The notes beneath the pieces are model-generated. The model was not told the origin of the DNA. It worked only from the letters and a program-made list of their open reading frames with translations, and searched no databases. A DNA stretch of 64,000 bases from Allgaiera indica (lineage in GTDB: Bacteria; Pseudomonadota; Alphaproteobacteria; Rhodobacterales; Rhodobacteraceae), in assembly GCF_900106675.1 (NCBI RefSeq), contig NZ_FNOB01000015.1:1-64000 (forward strand). The letters are read 5' to 3'. This document shows, piece after piece, positions 6,666 through 15,311 of this stretch. Every line of letters begins with the position of its first letter. Positions within the stretch are counted from its first letter, which is position 1. A program made the translations under genes and the position numbers.

Positions 6666-8702
6666 ATGGCTGACGACGACGCGCTGGTGATCTTCACGCC
6701 CTCGGGCAAGCGGGGCCGGGTGGCCCGGGGCACCCCGGTGCTGCAGGCGGCACGGCAATTGGGGGTCGATCTCGATTCCGTCTGTGGGATGCGCGGGATT
6801 TGCTCGAAATGCCAGATCACGCCGGGCTACGGCGAATTCCCCAAGCACGGCGTCCATGTGAAGCCCGACGCGCTGAGCGAATGGAACGCCGTCGAGGAAC
6901 GCTATGACCGGGTGCGCGGCCTCAAGGAAGGTCGGCGCCTGGGCTGTCAGGCCAGGATCATGGGCGACGTGGTGATCGATGTTCCGCGCGAAAGCCAGGT
7001 TCACAAGCAGGTGGTGCGCAAGGAGGCCGATGCCCGGCCGATCGTGATGGACCCGGCCACGCGGCTTTACTACGTCGAGGTGGCCGAGCCCGACATGCAT
7101 GTCCCCACCGGCGATCTGGAGCGGCTGAAGGCGGCGCTGAAGGATCAATGGGAGATCCCCGAGATCAGCGCCAATCTCGACGTGCTGCGCCAATTGCAGC
7201 CGGCGCTGCGAAAAGGGGAGTGGAAGGTGACGGTGGCGCTGAGCCAGGGCAATCACGACGCCCACCCCCGGCTGATCGACATCTGGCCCGGCTTCTACGA
7301 GGGGCGGCTATATGGCCTTGCGGTCGATCTGGGCTCGACCACGATTGCGGCGCATCTGGTGGATCTGCGCAACGGTTCGGTCGCGGCCTCGGCCGGGGTG
7401 ATGAACCCGCAGATCCGCTTCGGCGAGGATCTGATGAGCCGGGTGAGCTACGCGATGATGAACCCCGGCGGCGATGTCGAAATGACCCGCGCGGTCCGCG
7501 AGGCGCTTGATGGCCTGGCCGAGGATCTGGCGGAGGCGGCGAAGATCGAGCCGCCCCAGATCGTCGAGGCGGTGATCGTATGCAATCCCGTGATGCATCA
7601 TCTGCTTCTGGGCATCGACCCGGTCGAACTGGGCCAGGCGCCCTTCGCGCTGGCGGTGTCCAGCGCGCTTGACCTGCAGGCCCCCGATCTGCAGCTTTCG
7701 GCGATCAACCCGCGCGCCGGGATCTACATCCTGCCCTGCATCGCCGGACATGTGGGTGCCGATTGCGCCGCCGTGGCGCTGGCCGAGCAGCCGCAGAAAT
7801 CCGAGGACATGGTGCTGATCGTCGATGTCGGAACCAATGCCGAGCTGCTTCTGGGCAACAAGGAAAAGGTCGTGGCCTGCTCCTCTCCCACCGGGCCGGC
7901 CTTCGAGGGGGCGCAGATCAGTTCGGGCCAGCGCGCCGCACCCGGCGCGATCGAGCGGATCGAGATCGACCCGGTCACCAAGGAGCCGCGATTCCGGGTG
8001 ATCGGCTGCGACATATGGTCCGATCAGCCCGGATTCCAGGAGGCCATCGCAGGCACTGGAATCACCGGGATCTGCGGGTCGGGCATCATCGAGGCGGTGG
8101 CCGAGATGCGCATGGCCGGCATCGTCGACGCGAAGGGCCTGATCGGCTCGGCCGCGCAGGTCGGCACGCCCCGGATGGTCGCGCAGGGCCGCACGCACAG
8201 CTACCTGATTCACGACGCAAGTCCCGATGGTGGCCCGATAATCAGCGTCACCCAGGGCGATATCCGCGCGATCCAGCTGGCCAAGTCGGCGCTGTACGCC
8301 GGGGCGCGGCTGCTGATGGATGAACTGGGCATCGACACCGTCGACCGGGTGGTCCTGGCCGGGGCGTTCGGGGCGCATATTTCGCCAAAGCATGCAATGG
8401 CCATCGGCATGATTCCGGATGTTGCTCTTGAAAATGTGATCTCGGCGGGCAATGCTGCTGGAACGGGAGCGCGGATTGCCCTGTGCAACACCGAAGCCCG
8501 CAGCGAGATCGAGGCCGTGGTACGCGGCATTCACAAGGTGGAGACGGCGATAGAACCGAGGTTTCAGGAGCATTTCGTCAACGCGAACGCGCTGCCGCAC
8601 GCCACTGATCCCTTCCCCCATCTGAATGCGATCGTGCCTTTGCCAGATGTCTCGTTCAACATCGGCAGCGACCGGGAGGGCGGTCGCAGGAGGAGGCGCT
8701 GA
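6666..8702 (+). CDS. RACo-like ASKHA protein with N-terminal [2Fe-2S] ferredoxin domain (DUF4445 family)
   Basis: 678 residues. The first 100 residues form a ferredoxin-type domain with C40-x5-C46-x2-C49 and C94 (RLGCQA) as the likely [2Fe-2S] ligands. A linker/middle domain follows. From about residue 217 an ASKHA ATPase fold begins (LAVDLGSTTIAAHLVDL), with LIVDVGTNAELLL near 384 and VVLAGAFGAHISP near 560. Known family members (RACo, RamA-like activators) use ATP to drive reduction of Co(II)-corrinoid proteins to the active Co(I) form for methyl transfer. No corrinoid protein lies next to it, but an MttB-family methyltransferase is at 54140. The gene ends TGATG into the sigma/anti-sigma fusion gene (one-base overlap), so the two are co-translated. 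Substrate partner unknown. Confidence 0.85.
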   Translation: MADDDALVIFTPSGKRGRVARGTPVLQAARQLGVDLDSVCGMRGICSKCQITPGYGEFPKHGVHVKPDALSEWNAVEERYDRVRGLKEGRRLGCQARIMGDVVIDVPRESQVHKQVVRKEADARPIVMDPATRLYYVEVAEPDMHVPTGDLERLKAALKDQWEIPEISANLDVLRQLQPALRKGEWKVTVALSQGNHDAHPRLIDIWPGFYEGRLYGLAVDLGSTTIAAHLVDLRNGSVAASAGVMNPQIRFGEDLMSRVSYAMMNPGGDVEMTRAVREALDGLAEDLAEAAKIEPPQIVEAVIVCNPVMHHLLLGIDPVELGQAPFALAVSSALDLQAPDLQLSAINPRAGIYILPCIAGHVGADCAAVALAEQPQKSEDMVLIVDVGTNAELLLGNKEKVVACSSPTGPAFEGAQISSGQRAAPGAIERIEIDPVTKEPRFRVIGCDIWSDQPGFQEAIAGTGITGICGSGIIEAVAEMRMAGIVDAKGLIGSAAQVGTPRMVAQGRTHSYLIHDASPDGGPIISVTQGDIRAIQLAKSALYAGARLLMDELGIDTVDRVVLAGAFGAHISPKHAMAIGMIPDVALENVISAGNAAGTGARIALCNTEARSEIEAVVRGIHKVETAIEPRFQEHFVNANALPHATDPFPHLNAIVPLPDVSFNIGSDREGGRRRRR

Positions 8703-9913
8703 TGACTGATCACACCGGCCCCAGTGCGGGCCTATTGTTGAGGATTGCCCAGCAGGACCGCGAGGCGTTCCGAGGGCTCTACCGAACCGTTTCGGCCAAA
8801 CTCTACGGGGTCGCGTTGCGCATTCTGGGCAACAAGGCCGAGGCCGAGTTGACCGTGCAGGATCTGTTCACCCGGATCTGGCTGCACGCGGGGCGATTCA
8901 ATCCCGATCGCGAACGAGGGCTGGATTTCCTGATCTGCATGGCGCGCGACAGCGCGATCGACAGGCGTCGCGCCCGCGGCCCGGTGCCTGCCGACGGATC
9001 GGGCCACGAGACCGCGTTTATGGCGCATGAGGCGGATTTGCGCCATCCCGAAGGCCTGTCGCGGGTCGAACCGCGCTGTGCGCAGGCGATCACCGCCGCC
9101 TATCTGGGCGGGCTGACCCATGCCGAGATCGCCGCGGCCTGCGGTAAGCAGGAAGCCGAGGTGCGCCCGCTTCTGCACGATGCCTTCCGCCAGATCGCCG
9201 CCGTCGGGGAACCGAAGGCATTGCCGGGGCTCGTGGTGCCAGACGACGACTGCTCTGAGGATGGGATGCTGGCGGCGGAATTCGTGCTGGGCTCGCTAAG
9301 CCTGGAAGAGCGCCGCATGGTGCAAAGACGTCTGGCCAATCTGCATGATACCGCCTTTGCCGCCCATGTCGCGCTGTGGCGGGCGCGGCTGGCGCCGCTG
9401 AATGCGGCCTATGCGGCGGTTTCCGCGCCGGATCTGCTGACCATGATCGAGGCGCGCATCTTCGGCACGCCGGTGGCCGTGCAGCAAAGCAACCTCAAGC
9501 GGATGGCGGTTGCGATGTTCGGCGGGGTCGCCGCGATCGCAGTGGTCGCGGCGCTGACCGCGATCGCGGTGCGCGACACCACCCCGCCGCCCGAACTGTA
9601 TGCCGCAACGCTGGAAGCCGGTGGCAATCAGCTGATCTTCGCGGCGGCCTGGGATCCGGGCAGCCGCAAGTTCGAAGTGCTGCGCACGGGCGGGCCGGCA
9701 CCGGCGCCGGGCAAGGATTATCAGATCTGGCTGCTGCGCGCGGATGGCGCGGTGCAGCCGCTGATGATGCTGCGCGGCGAAGAAAACGTCACCCTGATCT
9801 CGCATATCCCGCGCGACGCCAAGCTCGGCGTCACGCTGGAGCCAACTAGCGACGGCCTGGCGGCGAAGCCTTCGGGGCCGATGCTGCTGACTGGCAAGGT
9901 GCAAAGGCTCTGA
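8702..9913 (+). CDS. Single-chain ECF sigma factor fused to RskA-type anti-sigma membrane protein
   Basis: 403 residues in one uninterrupted frame. Residues about 14-90 look like sigma region 2 (LYGVALRILGNKAEAELTVQ, TRIWLHAGRF, ARDSAIDRRR). Residues about 118-168 look like a weak sigma region 4 (AITAAYLGGLTHAEIAAACG), with the usual recognition-helix GTVK replaced by EAEV. Residues about 188-258 match the cytoplasmic anti-sigma domain of RskA proteins (AAEFVLGSLSLEERR, LWRARLAPL). A transmembrane helix lies at about 265-285, and 292-403 is an RskA C-terminal periplasmic domain (YQIWLLRADGAVQPLMMLRG). Normally sigma and anti-sigma are separate adjacent genes. The ATG overlaps the upstream stop by one base. 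Whether it is a working, tethered sigma factor or a pure regulator is unknown. Confidence 0.8.
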   Translation: MTDHTGPSAGLLLRIAQQDREAFRGLYRTVSAKLYGVALRILGNKAEAELTVQDLFTRIWLHAGRFNPDRERGLDFLICMARDSAIDRRRARGPVPADGSGHETAFMAHEADLRHPEGLSRVEPRCAQAITAAYLGGLTHAEIAAACGKQEAEVRPLLHDAFRQIAAVGEPKALPGLVVPDDDCSEDGMLAAEFVLGSLSLEERRMVQRRLANLHDTAFAAHVALWRARLAPLNAAYAAVSAPDLLTMIEARIFGTPVAVQQSNLKRMAVAMFGGVAAIAVVAALTAIAVRDTTPPPELYAATLEAGGNQLIFAAAWDPGSRKFEVLRTGGPAPAPGKDYQIWLLRADGAVQPLMMLRGEENVTLISHIPRDAKLGVTLEPTSDGLAAKPSGPMLLTGKVQRL

Positions 9914-9961: not shown

Positions 9962-10260
9962 CGGCCTTTGGGCAGAGGCGGGCCCACGCAAGCAGTGCGA
10001 CGCGCGCCGCCCGCGCCATGCAGGCGGGCGCCTCGGGGGGCGGCGCGATGGCGGTGGCCCTGGTGGCAGCGCCTTGCCGCGGCACGCTGTCGCGGACCCC
10101 AGTGCCGCCATGCTTCGATAGGGCCATGCAGCCCGGCGCGCCTGCTCCGCGCCGACCCTTGGTGGTGGCGGACTCAGGCCGATCCGCCCCTCTTGCCGGG
10201 GCGGGAAGGGTCTGTTCAAATCGCCGCACGCCCGCGCCCATGCGGGCAAAGGGTTCTTGC
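9962..10260. other. Non-coding gap between the two sigma/anti-sigma fusion genes
   Basis: About 300 bases with no recognisable gene. Frames are open on both strands, as expected at this GC content, but none shows a domain. It presumably contains the promoter for the second fusion gene; I see no clear sigma70 hexamers. AAAGGG at 10248-10253 could be a ribosome binding site for the ATG at 10261. Confidence 0.4.
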
Positions 10261-10317
10261 ATGAGTCTCGAAACGATCACGGCCGAAGCCGGCGGCGCGG
10301 CGGGGCGGCAGGCATGA
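10261..10317 (+). CDS. Possible 18-residue leader peptide coupled to the second fusion gene
   Basis: ATG at 10261, seven bases after AAAGGG, opens an 18-codon frame (MSLETITAEAGGAAGRQA) whose TGA at 10315-10317 overlaps the ATG at 10314 of the next gene as ATGA. This is the arrangement expected for a translational-coupling leader. It is too short for a domain call and could be chance. The alternative is that the downstream protein starts at the TTG at 10257 in its own frame, with a longer basic N-terminus. Confidence 0.3.
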   Translation: MSLETITAEAGGAAGRQA

Positions 10318-11123
10318 GCGCCGATCCCCTTGCCGATCTGATCGGGCGGCTCGCCGCGCGCGACCGCGCCGCGCTGCGCGATCTTTACGATGCGGCGGCG
10401 GACAGGCTTTTCGCGGCCATCTTGCACATCCTGCGCGACCGGGCCGAGGCCGAGGACGCGCTGCAAGAGACATTCGCCCGCATCTGGCAGCGCGCGAAGC
10501 GCTTCGATCCGGCGCGGGAAGGGGCGATGGCCTGGCTGACTGCCATCGCCCGCGATTGCGCGGCCGAACGGCGGCGCACCAAACCCGCCGCGCCCGGCCG
10601 GGCCGCGAAGGATCCGCGCCCCGCAGCCGACCCCCTGCCTGCGCCCGACCTGCTGCCCGGGATCGAGGTGCGTCTGTTCGGCAACCGCGCGCCCGGCCGC
10701 CGGCGCTACTTGCTGCGCGCGATTTTCGTCCTGACGGCGGCGCTGGCGCTGGCGCTGGCGGTCGTGGTGTTCTGGCAGGCCGGCGGCCAGCGCCCGACGG
10801 CGCCCCGTTCCGCCGCCACGCTGGAACAGCGCGGCGTGAAGCTGGCCTTCTCCGCCGAGTGGAGCCCCGCAACCCGCGAATTGCAGGTCACCCGCACCCT
10901 GGGGCCGCCGGCCGGGCCGGGGCACGATTACGAATTGTGGCTGATCGACCGATCCGGGGCGCCGGTCTCGTTGGGCCTGTTGCGCGGCCATCTGTACCGG
11001 GCGGCGGTGCCGGCGCTGCCGCCAGGCGCGGAATTGGCGGTCAGCCTGGAACCCATGGGGGGCTCGCGCACGGGGCAGCCAACGGGGCCGGTGCTGGTCA
11101 AGGGTGTGGTCGCGCGGCTCTGA
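10314..11123 (+). CDS. Shortened sigma-region-2 / RskA C-terminal fusion protein (paralogue of the upstream fusion)
   Basis: 269 residues from the ATG at 10314. Residues about 8-85 match ECF sigma region 2 strongly (LYDAAADRLFAAILHILRD, AEDALQETFARIWQRAKRFD, AWLTAIARDCAAERRR). A Pro/Ala linker follows, then PAPDLLPGIEVRLFG, which aligns with SAPDLLTMIEARIFG at the end of the anti-sigma domain of the upstream fusion. A transmembrane helix spans about 131-155 and residues 165-269 match the RskA C-terminal domain (YELWLIDRSGAPVSLGLLRG). Sigma region 4 and most of the anti-sigma domain are missing. Without region 4 it should not recognise a -35 element alone. It looks like a duplicate of the upstream gene with an internal in-frame deletion. 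Confidence 0.8.
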   Translation: MSADPLADLIGRLAARDRAALRDLYDAAADRLFAAILHILRDRAEAEDALQETFARIWQRAKRFDPAREGAMAWLTAIARDCAAERRRTKPAAPGRAAKDPRPAADPLPAPDLLPGIEVRLFGNRAPGRRRYLLRAIFVLTAALALALAVVVFWQAGGQRPTAPRSAATLEQRGVKLAFSAEWSPATRELQVTRTLGPPAGPGHDYELWLIDRSGAPVSLGLLRGHLYRAAVPALPPGAELAVSLEPMGGSRTGQPTGPVLVKGVVARL

Positions 11124-11245: not shown

Positions 11246-12484
11246 ATGAGCAGGCTTGTCGCGATTTTCAGGCTGGGTTTCCTGGCGTGGCTTCTGGCCG
11301 CGCCGCTTGGTCATGCCGAACCGGCGCTGTCGGCGCTTGCGCGGTTCGAGCCGCGGGCGTCGGCCATTACCGACAGCGGCGGCGACATCGCGGTGCGCCT
11401 GGCGATCAGCCAGCCGGTGCCCTGGCGGGTCCGGGTGCTGGACCATCCCGCCCGGCTGGTCGTCGATTTCCGAGAAGTCGACTGGGGCGATGTCTCGCGC
11501 ATGTCGCTGTCGCAATCCCGCCATATCAAGGCCTTGCGCGCCGGCCCGCTGCGCCCGGGCTGGTCGCGGCTGGTTCTGGAACTTGACGGCCCCTTCGGTG
11601 TCGCGACGGCCGAGATGCGCACCGATCAGGGCGGCGCGGGCGGCGCGGTGGTGCATCTGCGACTGCGCCCCGAGTCCGAGGCCGATTTCGCCACTGCCGC
11701 CGCACGCCCCGACCCCCCGGGCTGGTCGCTGCCGAAGCCCGCGCAGATCGGCCTGTCGAAGCACCGCCAGACCGGGGACCATCCGCTGATGGTCGTGATC
11801 GACCCTGGCCATGGCGGCATCGACCCGGGCGCGGTCTATGGCAAGGAACACGAGGCCGATATCGTGCTGGCCGTGGCGCGAAAACTGCGCGAGGCGCTGC
11901 TGCGCGCGGGCGGTTTCGACGTGGTGATGACACGCGATGCCGATGTCTTCGTGCCGCTCGAGACGCGGGTTTCGGTCGCGCGCGAGGCGGGGGCGGATCT
12001 GTTCCTGTCGCTTCATGCCGATGCGATCCCGGTCGGGCATGCGACCGGCGCCACCGTCTATACGCTGTCGCGCAAGGCGACCAACCGGGCCTCGGCGCTG
12101 CTGGCCGAACATCACAACCGCGACGATCTGCTGTCGGGCGTCGATCTGTCGGGAACCGACGATATCGTCGCCGGCCTGCTGATGAGCATGGCGCAGGCCG
12201 ACAACATGCCACGATCGGATGCCTTTGCCCGCGATCTGGTCCAGGTGATCCGGCACGCCGGCATCCGGATGCACGACCCCGCCCATGAAGAGGCCGATTT
12301 CGCGGTGATCCGATCCCCCGACATCCCCTCGGCGCTGCTGGAACTGGGCTTTCTGTCTTCGCCCCGGGACCGCAAGCGGCTGGAGGATCCGGCCTGGCAG
12401 GACCGCATGGTCGCGGCAATCGTCCGCGGCATCCGTGCCTGGGCGGTGAAGGATGCGGCGCAGGCGGCGCTCTTGCGGCGCTAG
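11246..12484 (+). CDS. amiC: N-acetylmuramoyl-L-alanine amidase (AMIN + Amidase_3)
   Basis: Periplasmic zinc amidase that cleaves the stem peptide from peptidoglycan during daughter-cell separation. 412 residues. A signal peptide covers about 1-24 (ends GHA). An AMIN domain (about 25-150) targets septal peptidoglycan, and an Amidase_3 catalytic domain covers about 182-400. Zinc ligands are visible in VIDPGHGGIDPG (His near 189), KEHEADIV (Glu near 202) and SLHADA (His near 256). The catalytic Glu is in LLELGFLSS near 366. No internal autoinhibitory segment is obvious. Located just before a class A penicillin-binding protein, a common pairing in Alphaproteobacteria. Confidence 0.92.
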   Translation: MSRLVAIFRLGFLAWLLAAPLGHAEPALSALARFEPRASAITDSGGDIAVRLAISQPVPWRVRVLDHPARLVVDFREVDWGDVSRMSLSQSRHIKALRAGPLRPGWSRLVLELDGPFGVATAEMRTDQGGAGGAVVHLRLRPESEADFATAAARPDPPGWSLPKPAQIGLSKHRQTGDHPLMVVIDPGHGGIDPGAVYGKEHEADIVLAVARKLREALLRAGGFDVVMTRDADVFVPLETRVSVAREAGADLFLSLHADAIPVGHATGATVYTLSRKATNRASALLAEHHNRDDLLSGVDLSGTDDIVAGLLMSMAQADNMPRSDAFARDLVQVIRHAGIRMHDPAHEEADFAVIRSPDIPSALLELGFLSSPRDRKRLEDPAWQDRMVAAIVRGIRAWAVKDAAQAALLRR

Positions 12485-12684
12485 CGGGGCCCGCTTCCGC
12501 CCGGCGCACGCGTGAAGGACGTGGCGCGCGCCCGGGCGGGGCTGGCGCGGCCCGCCCGAACTGGCCCCTGTTTTGGCCCGCTACGCGCCCCGGGTCATGC
12601 AATCGCGCGCCCGCCTTGCGCCCTCTTCTCGCGTCCATGTGACGCGCTGTGGCGGAAAACGGCGCGGGCGCGGACGCTCTTGTT

Positions 12685-12713
12685 TTGACCCCGGGGGGGC
12701 GAGTGCGTATATG
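12685..12713 (+). promoter_or_regulatory. Candidate sigma70 promoter for the class A PBP gene
   Basis: TTGACC at 12685-12690, a 17-base spacer and TATATG at 12708-12713. The -10 hexamer overlaps the ATG at 12711, which would otherwise be a possible start, so translation must begin downstream of about 12720 if this promoter is used. Confidence 0.65.
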
Positions 12714-12740
12714 AGGAGCGATTTTGACGTGGGGCGATCC

Positions 12741-15311
<2,571 letters not shown>

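Follow-up and report, generated by a model that had tools for sequence, protein, structure and literature searches.

A single-chain ECF sigma factor/RskA anti-sigma factor in Acidimangrovimonas with altered DNA-reading residues in its sigma half

The window analyzed here is a 64,000-nucleotide stretch of the Allgaiera indica genome (contig NZ_FNOB01000015.1, positions 1 to 64,000). Its gene at 8702-9913, here P0001, encodes an extracytoplasmic function (ECF) sigma factor and an RskA-type anti-sigma factor as one polypeptide. The fusion is real, retained in its genus and under selection. Comparison with canonical relatives shows, at the level of sequence, that the sigma half lacks several residues for DNA reading and opening as well as part of its linker, and that it retains most of the protein-binding face of region 2 (sigma2) together with the anti-sigma contact helices. 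We tentatively hypothesize that the protein is a selected, membrane-anchored pseudo-sigma factor, self-clamped on its own anti-sigma domain, which may act as a mimic by partner exchange.

Architecture of the fused gene

The frame had been predicted to hold sigma region 2, region 4, an anti-sigma domain, a transmembrane (TM) helix and an RskA C-terminal domain (RskA_C), in that order, and the open reading frame, Pfam and NCBIfam agree with this. The parts are as follows.

8702..9913, forward strand: fused ECF sigma/RskA anti-sigma gene P0001, a single ATG-to-stop frame of 403 codons (403 aa)
8777..8977, forward strand: sigma region 2 (residues 26-92), with W76F and N83D; from Pfam and alignment columns
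8978..9052, forward strand: shortened sigma2-sigma4 linker (residues 93-117); from residue counts R90 to L122
9056..9193, forward strand: degenerate region 4 (residues 119-164) with an altered -35 recognition helix; from Pfam and conserved columns
9257..9409, forward strand: anti-sigma domain helices 1-3 (residues 186-236); from AlphaFold2 (AF2) helices and conserved columns
9428..9463, forward strand: anti-sigma helix 4, PDLLTMIEARIF (residues 243-254); from alignment columns, with an AF2 helix at 246-254
9503..9571, forward strand: probable TM helix, the single hydrophobic stretch (about residues 268-290); assigned by eye, low-confidence in the AF2 model
9527..9883, forward strand: RskA_C, expected to be periplasmic; from Pfam, its first residues overlapping the hydrophobic stretch

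In Pfam, Sigma70_r2 matched residues 26-92 (E 2.8e-10) and Sigma70_r4_2 residues 119-164 (E 4.2e-6; 26.7 bits vs. a cut-off of 25.7), which places regions 2 and 4 in the order of an ECF sigma factor; the sister model Sigma70_r4 fell below its cut-off (22.5 vs. 24.1). TIGR02937 reached 45.4 bits, above its cut-off of 42.9. RskA_C was detected at residues 276-394 (E 6.1e-15) with 56.1 bits against a Pfam cut-off of 29.4, as in class I anti-sigma factors of the RskA type, and the NCBIfam model NF052375, "anti-sigma factor", spans residues 190-382 (E 1.9e-19) with 70.5 bits, below its cut-off of 100. A sigma factor and a membrane anti-sigma factor in one polypeptide is the arrangement of IutY-type proteins. 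The anti-sigma half alone gave no PDB match by sequence up to E 10. Upstream alignments and a sigma-70 scan, which does not cover ECF promoters, yielded nothing usable as a promoter of the fusion.

Conservation of the fusion within the genus

The genus Acidimangrovimonas was represented by three genomes in the searched set: the window genome (G000), Acidimangrovimonas sediminis MS2-2 (G001) and the metagenome-assembled genome (MAG) CAJYAD01, labeled "uncultured Defluviimonas sp." (G002). A full-length, stop-free fusion is present in all three, at 100% identity in the window genome itself, 89% in the MAG and 59% in A. sediminis. Since the same unbroken frame recurs in A. sediminis MS2-2 and the MAG, a missed stop is unlikely, and with three assemblies agreeing on the open frame, a missed stop or frameshift was rejected. 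Under simulated neutral substitution of the window gene, 7.5% of 1000 runs kept an open frame after 159 changes, the number counted between G000 and G002, and 0.5% did so after 400 changes; of 1203 bases compared between the G000 and G001 fusions, 398 differ. Both halves place the three fusions in a single clade, with support of 100/99 in the sigma tree and 99/100 in the anti-sigma tree.

The claim that the two parts are normally separate genes was upheld outside the genus, where sigma and anti-sigma factors lie in different frames at 32 of 32 loci tested (28 same-family, 3 Blastomonas, 1 Marinobacter; locus L057 was left out of this test and of the trees). An RskA-type anti-sigma factor is expected as a separate gene beside the sigma gene, and in all three genus members the two share one frame.

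The same architecture was sought in four samples that partly coincide, with 394 genomes for the family, 390 for the order, 385 for the class and 388 for the phylum, and among the matches listed no further full-length, stop-free fusion was found outside the genus. Rare fusions may exist elsewhere because the samples overlap, at most four candidates were scored per genome, the fusion was the sole query for the order and class at strict E values (1e-31 and 1e-29), which distant fusions could escape, and the family sample was sparse (about one genome per genus, with no row for G001). Three full-span, same-frame rows of the phylum sample (G1213, G1041 and G1316) were rejected because a stop separates two genes in each, and the Blastomonas and Marinobacter matches were rejected as separate genes; G711 matched over 9-331 with one TAG. 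The original prediction had named homologs that are always two separate genes as an observation that would count against it; this holds for the outside loci tested and fails within the genus.

The sigma half departs from canonical sigma factors at DNA-reading positions

A column was considered conserved at 90% or more among 35 canonical sigma factors, comprising 27 of the same family, 3 from Blastomonas, 1 from Marinobacter, 3 of the type on the window genome's own contig C56 and the second-copy sigma factor of A. sediminis; anti-sigma counts refer to 33 canonical rows. The partial sigma row L023 was dropped from the column counts and the partial rows L043 and L045 from the anti-sigma counts, all three being kept in the trees. 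The fusions retain 19, 19 and 20 of 24 conserved columns in region 2 and 4, 4 and 6 of 6 in region 2.2, with E49, Q53 and W60 present in all three. In the anti-sigma domain, 9, 9 and 8 of 9 columns are retained across helices 1-3 and 3/3 in helix 4 of every fusion, i.e., the conserved helix bundle and fourth helix of the RskA type are in place. Region 4 had been described as degenerate, and it indeed keeps only 6, 8 and 14 of 20 columns.

The -10 contacts of region 2, whose conservation had been proposed as a check, gave a divided answer: most of the region is retained, and the pocket itself is changed in all three fusions. Position 76 is W in 35/35 canonical sigma factors and F in 3/3 fusions; position 83 is N in 34/35 (H in one) and D in 3/3 fusions. 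By spacing, these residues correspond to W81 and N88 of sigma-H, where alanine mutants of the -10 pocket are reported as defective (PMC6411747). The W and N of regions 2.3-2.4 that mark ECF sigma factors are thus missing from the fusions, although N is not absolute, with R at its site in SigK.

The prediction that the recognition helix of region 4 lacks GTVK was likewise correct. The motif [GN]T[VML][KR][TS]W[LI][RH]R occurs in 35/35 canonical relatives and 0/3 fusions, where the corresponding segments are AEVRPLLHD, DEVRPLLHD and AEMRSFLHG; the family's -35 recognition helix is therefore changed. Three invariant residues (35/35) are replaced, namely T153 by E in all fusions, W157 by L, L and F, and R160 by D, D and G. 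N152 (N or G in canonical sigma factors) is A, D and A; at T156 (T or S), the fusions have P, P and S. The sigma-H residues S182 and R186, at the sites of 156 and 160, are described as needed (PMC6411747). The linker is also shortened, with 31, 31 and 30 residues between R90 and L122 vs. 40-49 in the 35 canonical sigma factors. SigK of Mycobacterium tuberculosis, the closest relative with a solved structure, carries the canonical T153 and W76, and its linker shows no shortening, since SigK aligns over 175 vs. 174 residues with the A. sediminis sigma factor (linker 42). Taken together, these residue patterns suggest that the fusion probably cannot read promoters.

In class I anti-sigma factors, helix 1 is reported to bind sigma4 and helix 4 to bind sigma2, and SigK L177 makes a hydrophobic contact to anti-sigma helix 1 (PMC7406223). 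The site matching L177 is F, F and L in the fusions.

Uneven rates of evolution along the chain

Whole-gene ratios of nonsynonymous to synonymous substitution (dN/dS) of the fusion were 0.15 for G000-G002 and 0.34 and 0.44 for the other pairs; those of the upstream gene, which encodes a RACo-like protein, were 0.10-0.16. Between G000 and G001, region 2 of the fusion shows 74% identity (dN/dS 0.14), region 4 only 36% (0.62), and helix 4 with its approach 75% (0.31). A canonical sigma factor of the same genomes served as control and was even across both domains (region 2, 80%; region 4, 79%). By Fisher tests on counts taken from rounded identities, regions 2 and 4 differ in the fusion (p 9e-6) and not in the control (p 1.0), and region 4 differs between fusion and control (p 7e-6).

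Over the three genome pairs, dN/dS was 0.05, 0.14 and 0.25 for region 2, 0.13, 0.62 and 0.97 for region 4, 0.07, 0.31 and 0.32 for helix 4 with its approach, and 0.24, 0.42 and 0.42 for RskA_C. Slightly different domain bounds gave 0.15, 0.69 and 1.11 for region 4 and 0.05, 0.16 and 0.29 for region 2. The segment that joins region 4 to the anti-sigma domain varies, with 44-69% identity. These rates agree with a lost region 4 function.

Predicted structure

The proposal to predict the structure was followed with an AF2 model from a 16-row alignment (predicted local distance difference test score, pLDDT, 74.0; predicted template modeling score, pTM, 0.61). Model confidence is good across regions 2 and 4 and the anti-sigma helices and poor at residues 1-5, 96-114, 256-297 and 398-403. 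Its best fold match in the PDB is SigK as bound to RskA (4nqw), with a VIA-align Z of 13.4 over 144 residues at 4.0 Å; Foldseek gave 4.4e-6 and 5.5 Å for the same SigK, and SigK/RskA (4nqw) is also the best PDB match by sequence (4.5e-13). Over both sigma domains, ECF sigma factors bound to RNA polymerase (RNAP) fit the model only at about 20-27 Å. The model thus supports a predicted arrangement like the SigK/RskA state.

A second, shorter fusion and the history of the locus

Both fusions lie downstream of the RACo-like gene, in the following order.

6666..8702, forward strand: RACo/AcsV-like ASKHA gene (corrinoid activation), upstream of the fusion; from sequence families
10314..11123, forward strand: second fused gene P0002, 269 aa from ATG, with region 2, helix 4, TM helix and RskA_C
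10383..10580, forward strand: region 2 of P0002 (Pfam 5.7e-12)
10644..10679, forward strand: helix 4 of P0002, PDLLPGIEVRLF, with 3/3 conserved columns retained
10737..11093, forward strand: RskA_C of P0002 (Pfam 5.6e-18), with 10/10 conserved columns retained

P0002, which the original prediction did not include, sits 400 bases downstream of the full fusion, and its frame also has a TTG at 10257. It lacks both region 4 and anti-sigma helices 1-3, so that region 2 runs straight into helix 4; because the partners of helices 1 and 4 in class I anti-sigma factors are sigma4 and sigma2, respectively, the remainder is a matched region 2/helix-4 couple. In its -10 pocket, N is changed to D as in the full fusion, and W is retained. 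Region 2 of P0002 is less strictly constrained (dN/dS 0.43 against the A. sediminis second copy).

At the second-copy position, A. sediminis has a separate sigma and RskA pair. In the MAG, this position (L053, 7074-8281) holds a sigma remnant of about 31 codons that ends like region 4, followed by an RskA with a scrambled helix 4 and a conserved RskA_C. Between P0002 and the MAG copy, RskA_C has a dN/dS of 0.30. All three second copies retain 10/10 conserved RskA_C columns vs. 5, 7 and 6 of 10 in the fusions; the full fusion and the second copy seem to have retained opposite ends.

In the anti-sigma tree, fusions and second copies group at 89/78, below the tool's star threshold, and the sigma tree leaves the fork between them open; P0002, Marinobacter, the partial rows and long branches meeting the fused rows were flagged as unsure in the trees, where long branches, including those of the fusions, may join falsely. 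The simplest reading, although not proven, is a tandem duplication of an ECF/RskA pair near RACo, after which one copy would have become a single chain.

The stop codon of the RACo gene overlaps the start codon of the fusion (TGATG, 8700-8704), and the fusion adjoins RACo in all three genus members. RACo genes were present in 20 of 31 genomes searched, and none of 17 other RACo loci had a sigma or RskA frame in flanks of up to 1.5 kb. Downstream of both fusions, at 11246-15311 on the forward strand, lie genes for an amidase (AMIN/Amidase_3) and a class A penicillin-binding protein, i.e., cell-wall genes beside envelope-type sensors. Further upstream, at 1476-2141 on the forward strand, a short frame with HTH_21 (1.5e-11) and a partial rve match below cut-off is probably an insertion sequence transposase or a fragment of one.

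A putative self-clamped pseudo-sigma factor and its alternatives

Two outcomes had been envisaged for the fusion: activation by cleavage inside the chain, or a protein that no longer works as a sigma factor. The second is mildly favored by the -35 helix, -10 pocket and linker changes common to three species. The hypothesis of a selected, membrane-anchored pseudo-sigma factor has, in our estimate, a chance just short of even. Within the chain, helix 4 of the anti-sigma domain would hold sigma2 and helix 1 what remains of region 4; the protein would thus be self-clamped and start no transcription. Either the sigma-like face could compete with a true SigK-type sigma factor for an RskA-type anti-sigma factor, or the anti-sigma domain, loosely capped by the decayed sigma half, could capture a true sigma factor. 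A signal from the periplasm, passed on by RskA_C and possibly involving RseP-type cleavage, might then shift the balance, in what would be PhyR-like sigma mimicry placed inside an anti-sigma chain. As a guess, the likeliest target would be the unfused SigK-like/RskA pair that the same genome carries on contig C56. The joint loss of region 4 and helices 1-3 from P0002, with its region 2/helix-4 couple retained, may be counted in favor. A fuller picture is speculative and somewhat unlikely as a whole: a TM anti-sigma factor with a DNA-blind sigma mimic built into the chain as its ligand, in which a periplasmic signal would decide whether the anti-sigma face can capture a true sigma factor, or the mimic the anti-sigma factor of a true sigma factor, with P0002 as a smaller version of the module (sigma2, helix 4 and sensor).

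Several points weigh against the pseudo-sigma hypothesis. In alignments, SigK of M. tuberculosis has D at the 160 site, R at both 157 and 83, and M at 80, and because this functional sigma factor differs there too, D160 and M80 alone are no proof of loss. H159 of the fusions also occurs in the Marinobacter sigma factor, S156 of G001 is a canonical choice, W76F is a mild substitution, and I86 and D87 are retained. Region 4 still exceeds the Pfam cut-off of Sigma70_r4_2, keeps 14/20 columns in G001 and, with a dN/dS of 0.13, evolves under constraint between the two closest species. The AF2 model is support rather than proof, since its 16-row alignment includes unfused relatives, and the anti-sigma-bound ECF sigma factors 5wuq, 8z6g and 1or7 are a poor match to it when both domains are aligned (11-16 Å, Foldseek). 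With so few RskA_C columns retained in the fusions, sensing may have changed or weakened. A conserved region 2 cannot distinguish mimicry from core binding, because the anti-sigma and RNAP faces of sigma2 overlap, and targets acted on in trans are conjectural.

The fusion might instead be a decaying duplicate, its sigma half a remnant and only the membrane and periplasmic RskA_C part, or nothing, of importance. We regard this as unlikely, although the neighboring second copy is plainly eroding, from a pair to a remnant of about 31 codons or to P0002 with its dN/dS of 0.43, the RskA_C of the second copies retains 10/10 columns (dN/dS 0.30 between P0002 and the MAG copy), and in the full fusion region 4 rises to 0.62-0.97 for the two wider pairs. 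Decay of this kind predicts the opposite of the observed rates, in which region 2 of the fusion (0.05-0.25) is tighter than its RskA_C (0.24-0.42), and the neutral simulation seldom leaves the frame open (7.5% at 159 changes; 0.5% at 400).

It is slightly less likely again, in our view, that the protein is an active sigma factor of the IutY kind, from which a periplasmic signal and cleavage in the membrane region by RseP would remove the anti-sigma part, releasing a sigma factor of altered promoter specificity. IutY is reported to work in this way, and ECF52 probably does (PMC8999054, PMC5411451); constraint in the fusion is strongest on region 2 and helix 4, SigK, itself a working sigma factor, shows D, R, R and M at four sites that are changed in the fusions, and the variable stretch between region 4 and the anti-sigma domain could be a cleavage linker. 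Against this, T153, W76 and the linker length, common to all 35 relatives, are changed in all three species, with SigK keeping the T and W; moreover, if cleavage took place only at the membrane, the sigma half would still carry the anti-sigma domain. A gene of the site-2 protease family (PF02163) was found, but its occurrence in 14/14 control genomes makes its presence unspecific.

An improbable alternative is a membrane depot for RNAP, in which the sigma2 face would hold core RNAP or compete with sigma factors for it without recognizing promoters. The retained E49, Q53 and W60 of region 2.2 fit this, as conserved sigma2 residues are described as contacting the beta' coiled coil in the ECF holoenzyme (PMC6411747); however, helix 4 of class I anti-sigma factors is reported to cover the same face (PMC7406223), and because helix 4 is retained in cis, core binding should be blocked unless it is released. 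An assembly or sequencing artifact that hides a stop or frameshift between two genes, a pattern for which some distant genomes with two same-frame genes and one stop between them offer a precedent, has next to no chance given that three assemblies agree and constrained domains flank the junction.

Comparison with known systems

The original prediction treated the fusion as a break with known biology, which is too strong. A fusion as such is not new: in IutY, an ECF sigma factor and its anti-sigma factor form a single chain, with release by Prc and RseP (PMC8999054, PMC5411451), and ECF48, ECF52, ECF53 and ECF36 are described as including fused members (PMC8999054). A fused sigma-RskA protein was not found in the parts of the open-access literature consulted. 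One-chain sigma/anti-sigma proteins and degenerate sigma mimics are thus known in different settings, and this locus may join both. The three related genomes offer a natural series of a separate pair, a full fusion, a shrunken fusion and an RskA accompanied by a sigma remnant. Should the sigma half be a mimic, the protein would provide a compact test of how an anti-sigma factor recognizes a sigma factor without DNA reading, and of how regulators become decoys after duplication.

The closest likeness is to SigK/RskA of M. tuberculosis (4nqw) and to the C56 pair, which have the same parts in the same order; unlike the fusion, those are two genes, and the C56-type sigma factors retain the -10 and -35 residues of the family. 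RskA is reported to be able to activate as well as inhibit SigK (PMC7509140). On contig C56 (L050), the separate SigK-like sigma and RskA genes lie near a gene that is fasciclin-like by eye; a gene of this appearance is also found in L051 and beside the Blastomonas L055 and L057 pairs, reminiscent of the mycobacterial SigK regulon.

Like IutY of Pseudomonas putida, the fusion has an N-terminal ECF sigma factor, a TM helix and a periplasmic C-terminal part in one polypeptide, but IutY is described as an active sigma factor of an iron-uptake system, whereas the fusion has altered DNA-reading residues and RskA_C. ECF52 (SCO4117), ECF48, ECF53 and ECF36 resemble it in joining an ECF sigma factor to anti-sigma-like and TM parts; their extensions are zinc-finger or DUF2275 domains, and the descriptions consulted mention neither an RskA_C fusion nor a loss of DNA reading. 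PhyR, which acts in the alphaproteobacterial general stress response, is reported to carry an ECF-like domain in which the regions for promoter and RNAP are degenerate and which titrates an anti-sigma factor (PMC8103513). No receiver family was found on P0001 among Pfam matches up to E 1, and the PhyR combination of sigma-like and receiver domains is therefore not seen. The fusion shares with PhyR a sigma-like domain with degenerate DNA-reading regions; unlike PhyR, in which this domain is joined to a receiver and NepR exists as a protein of its own, the putative pseudo-sigma domain is here joined to the anti-sigma factor itself.

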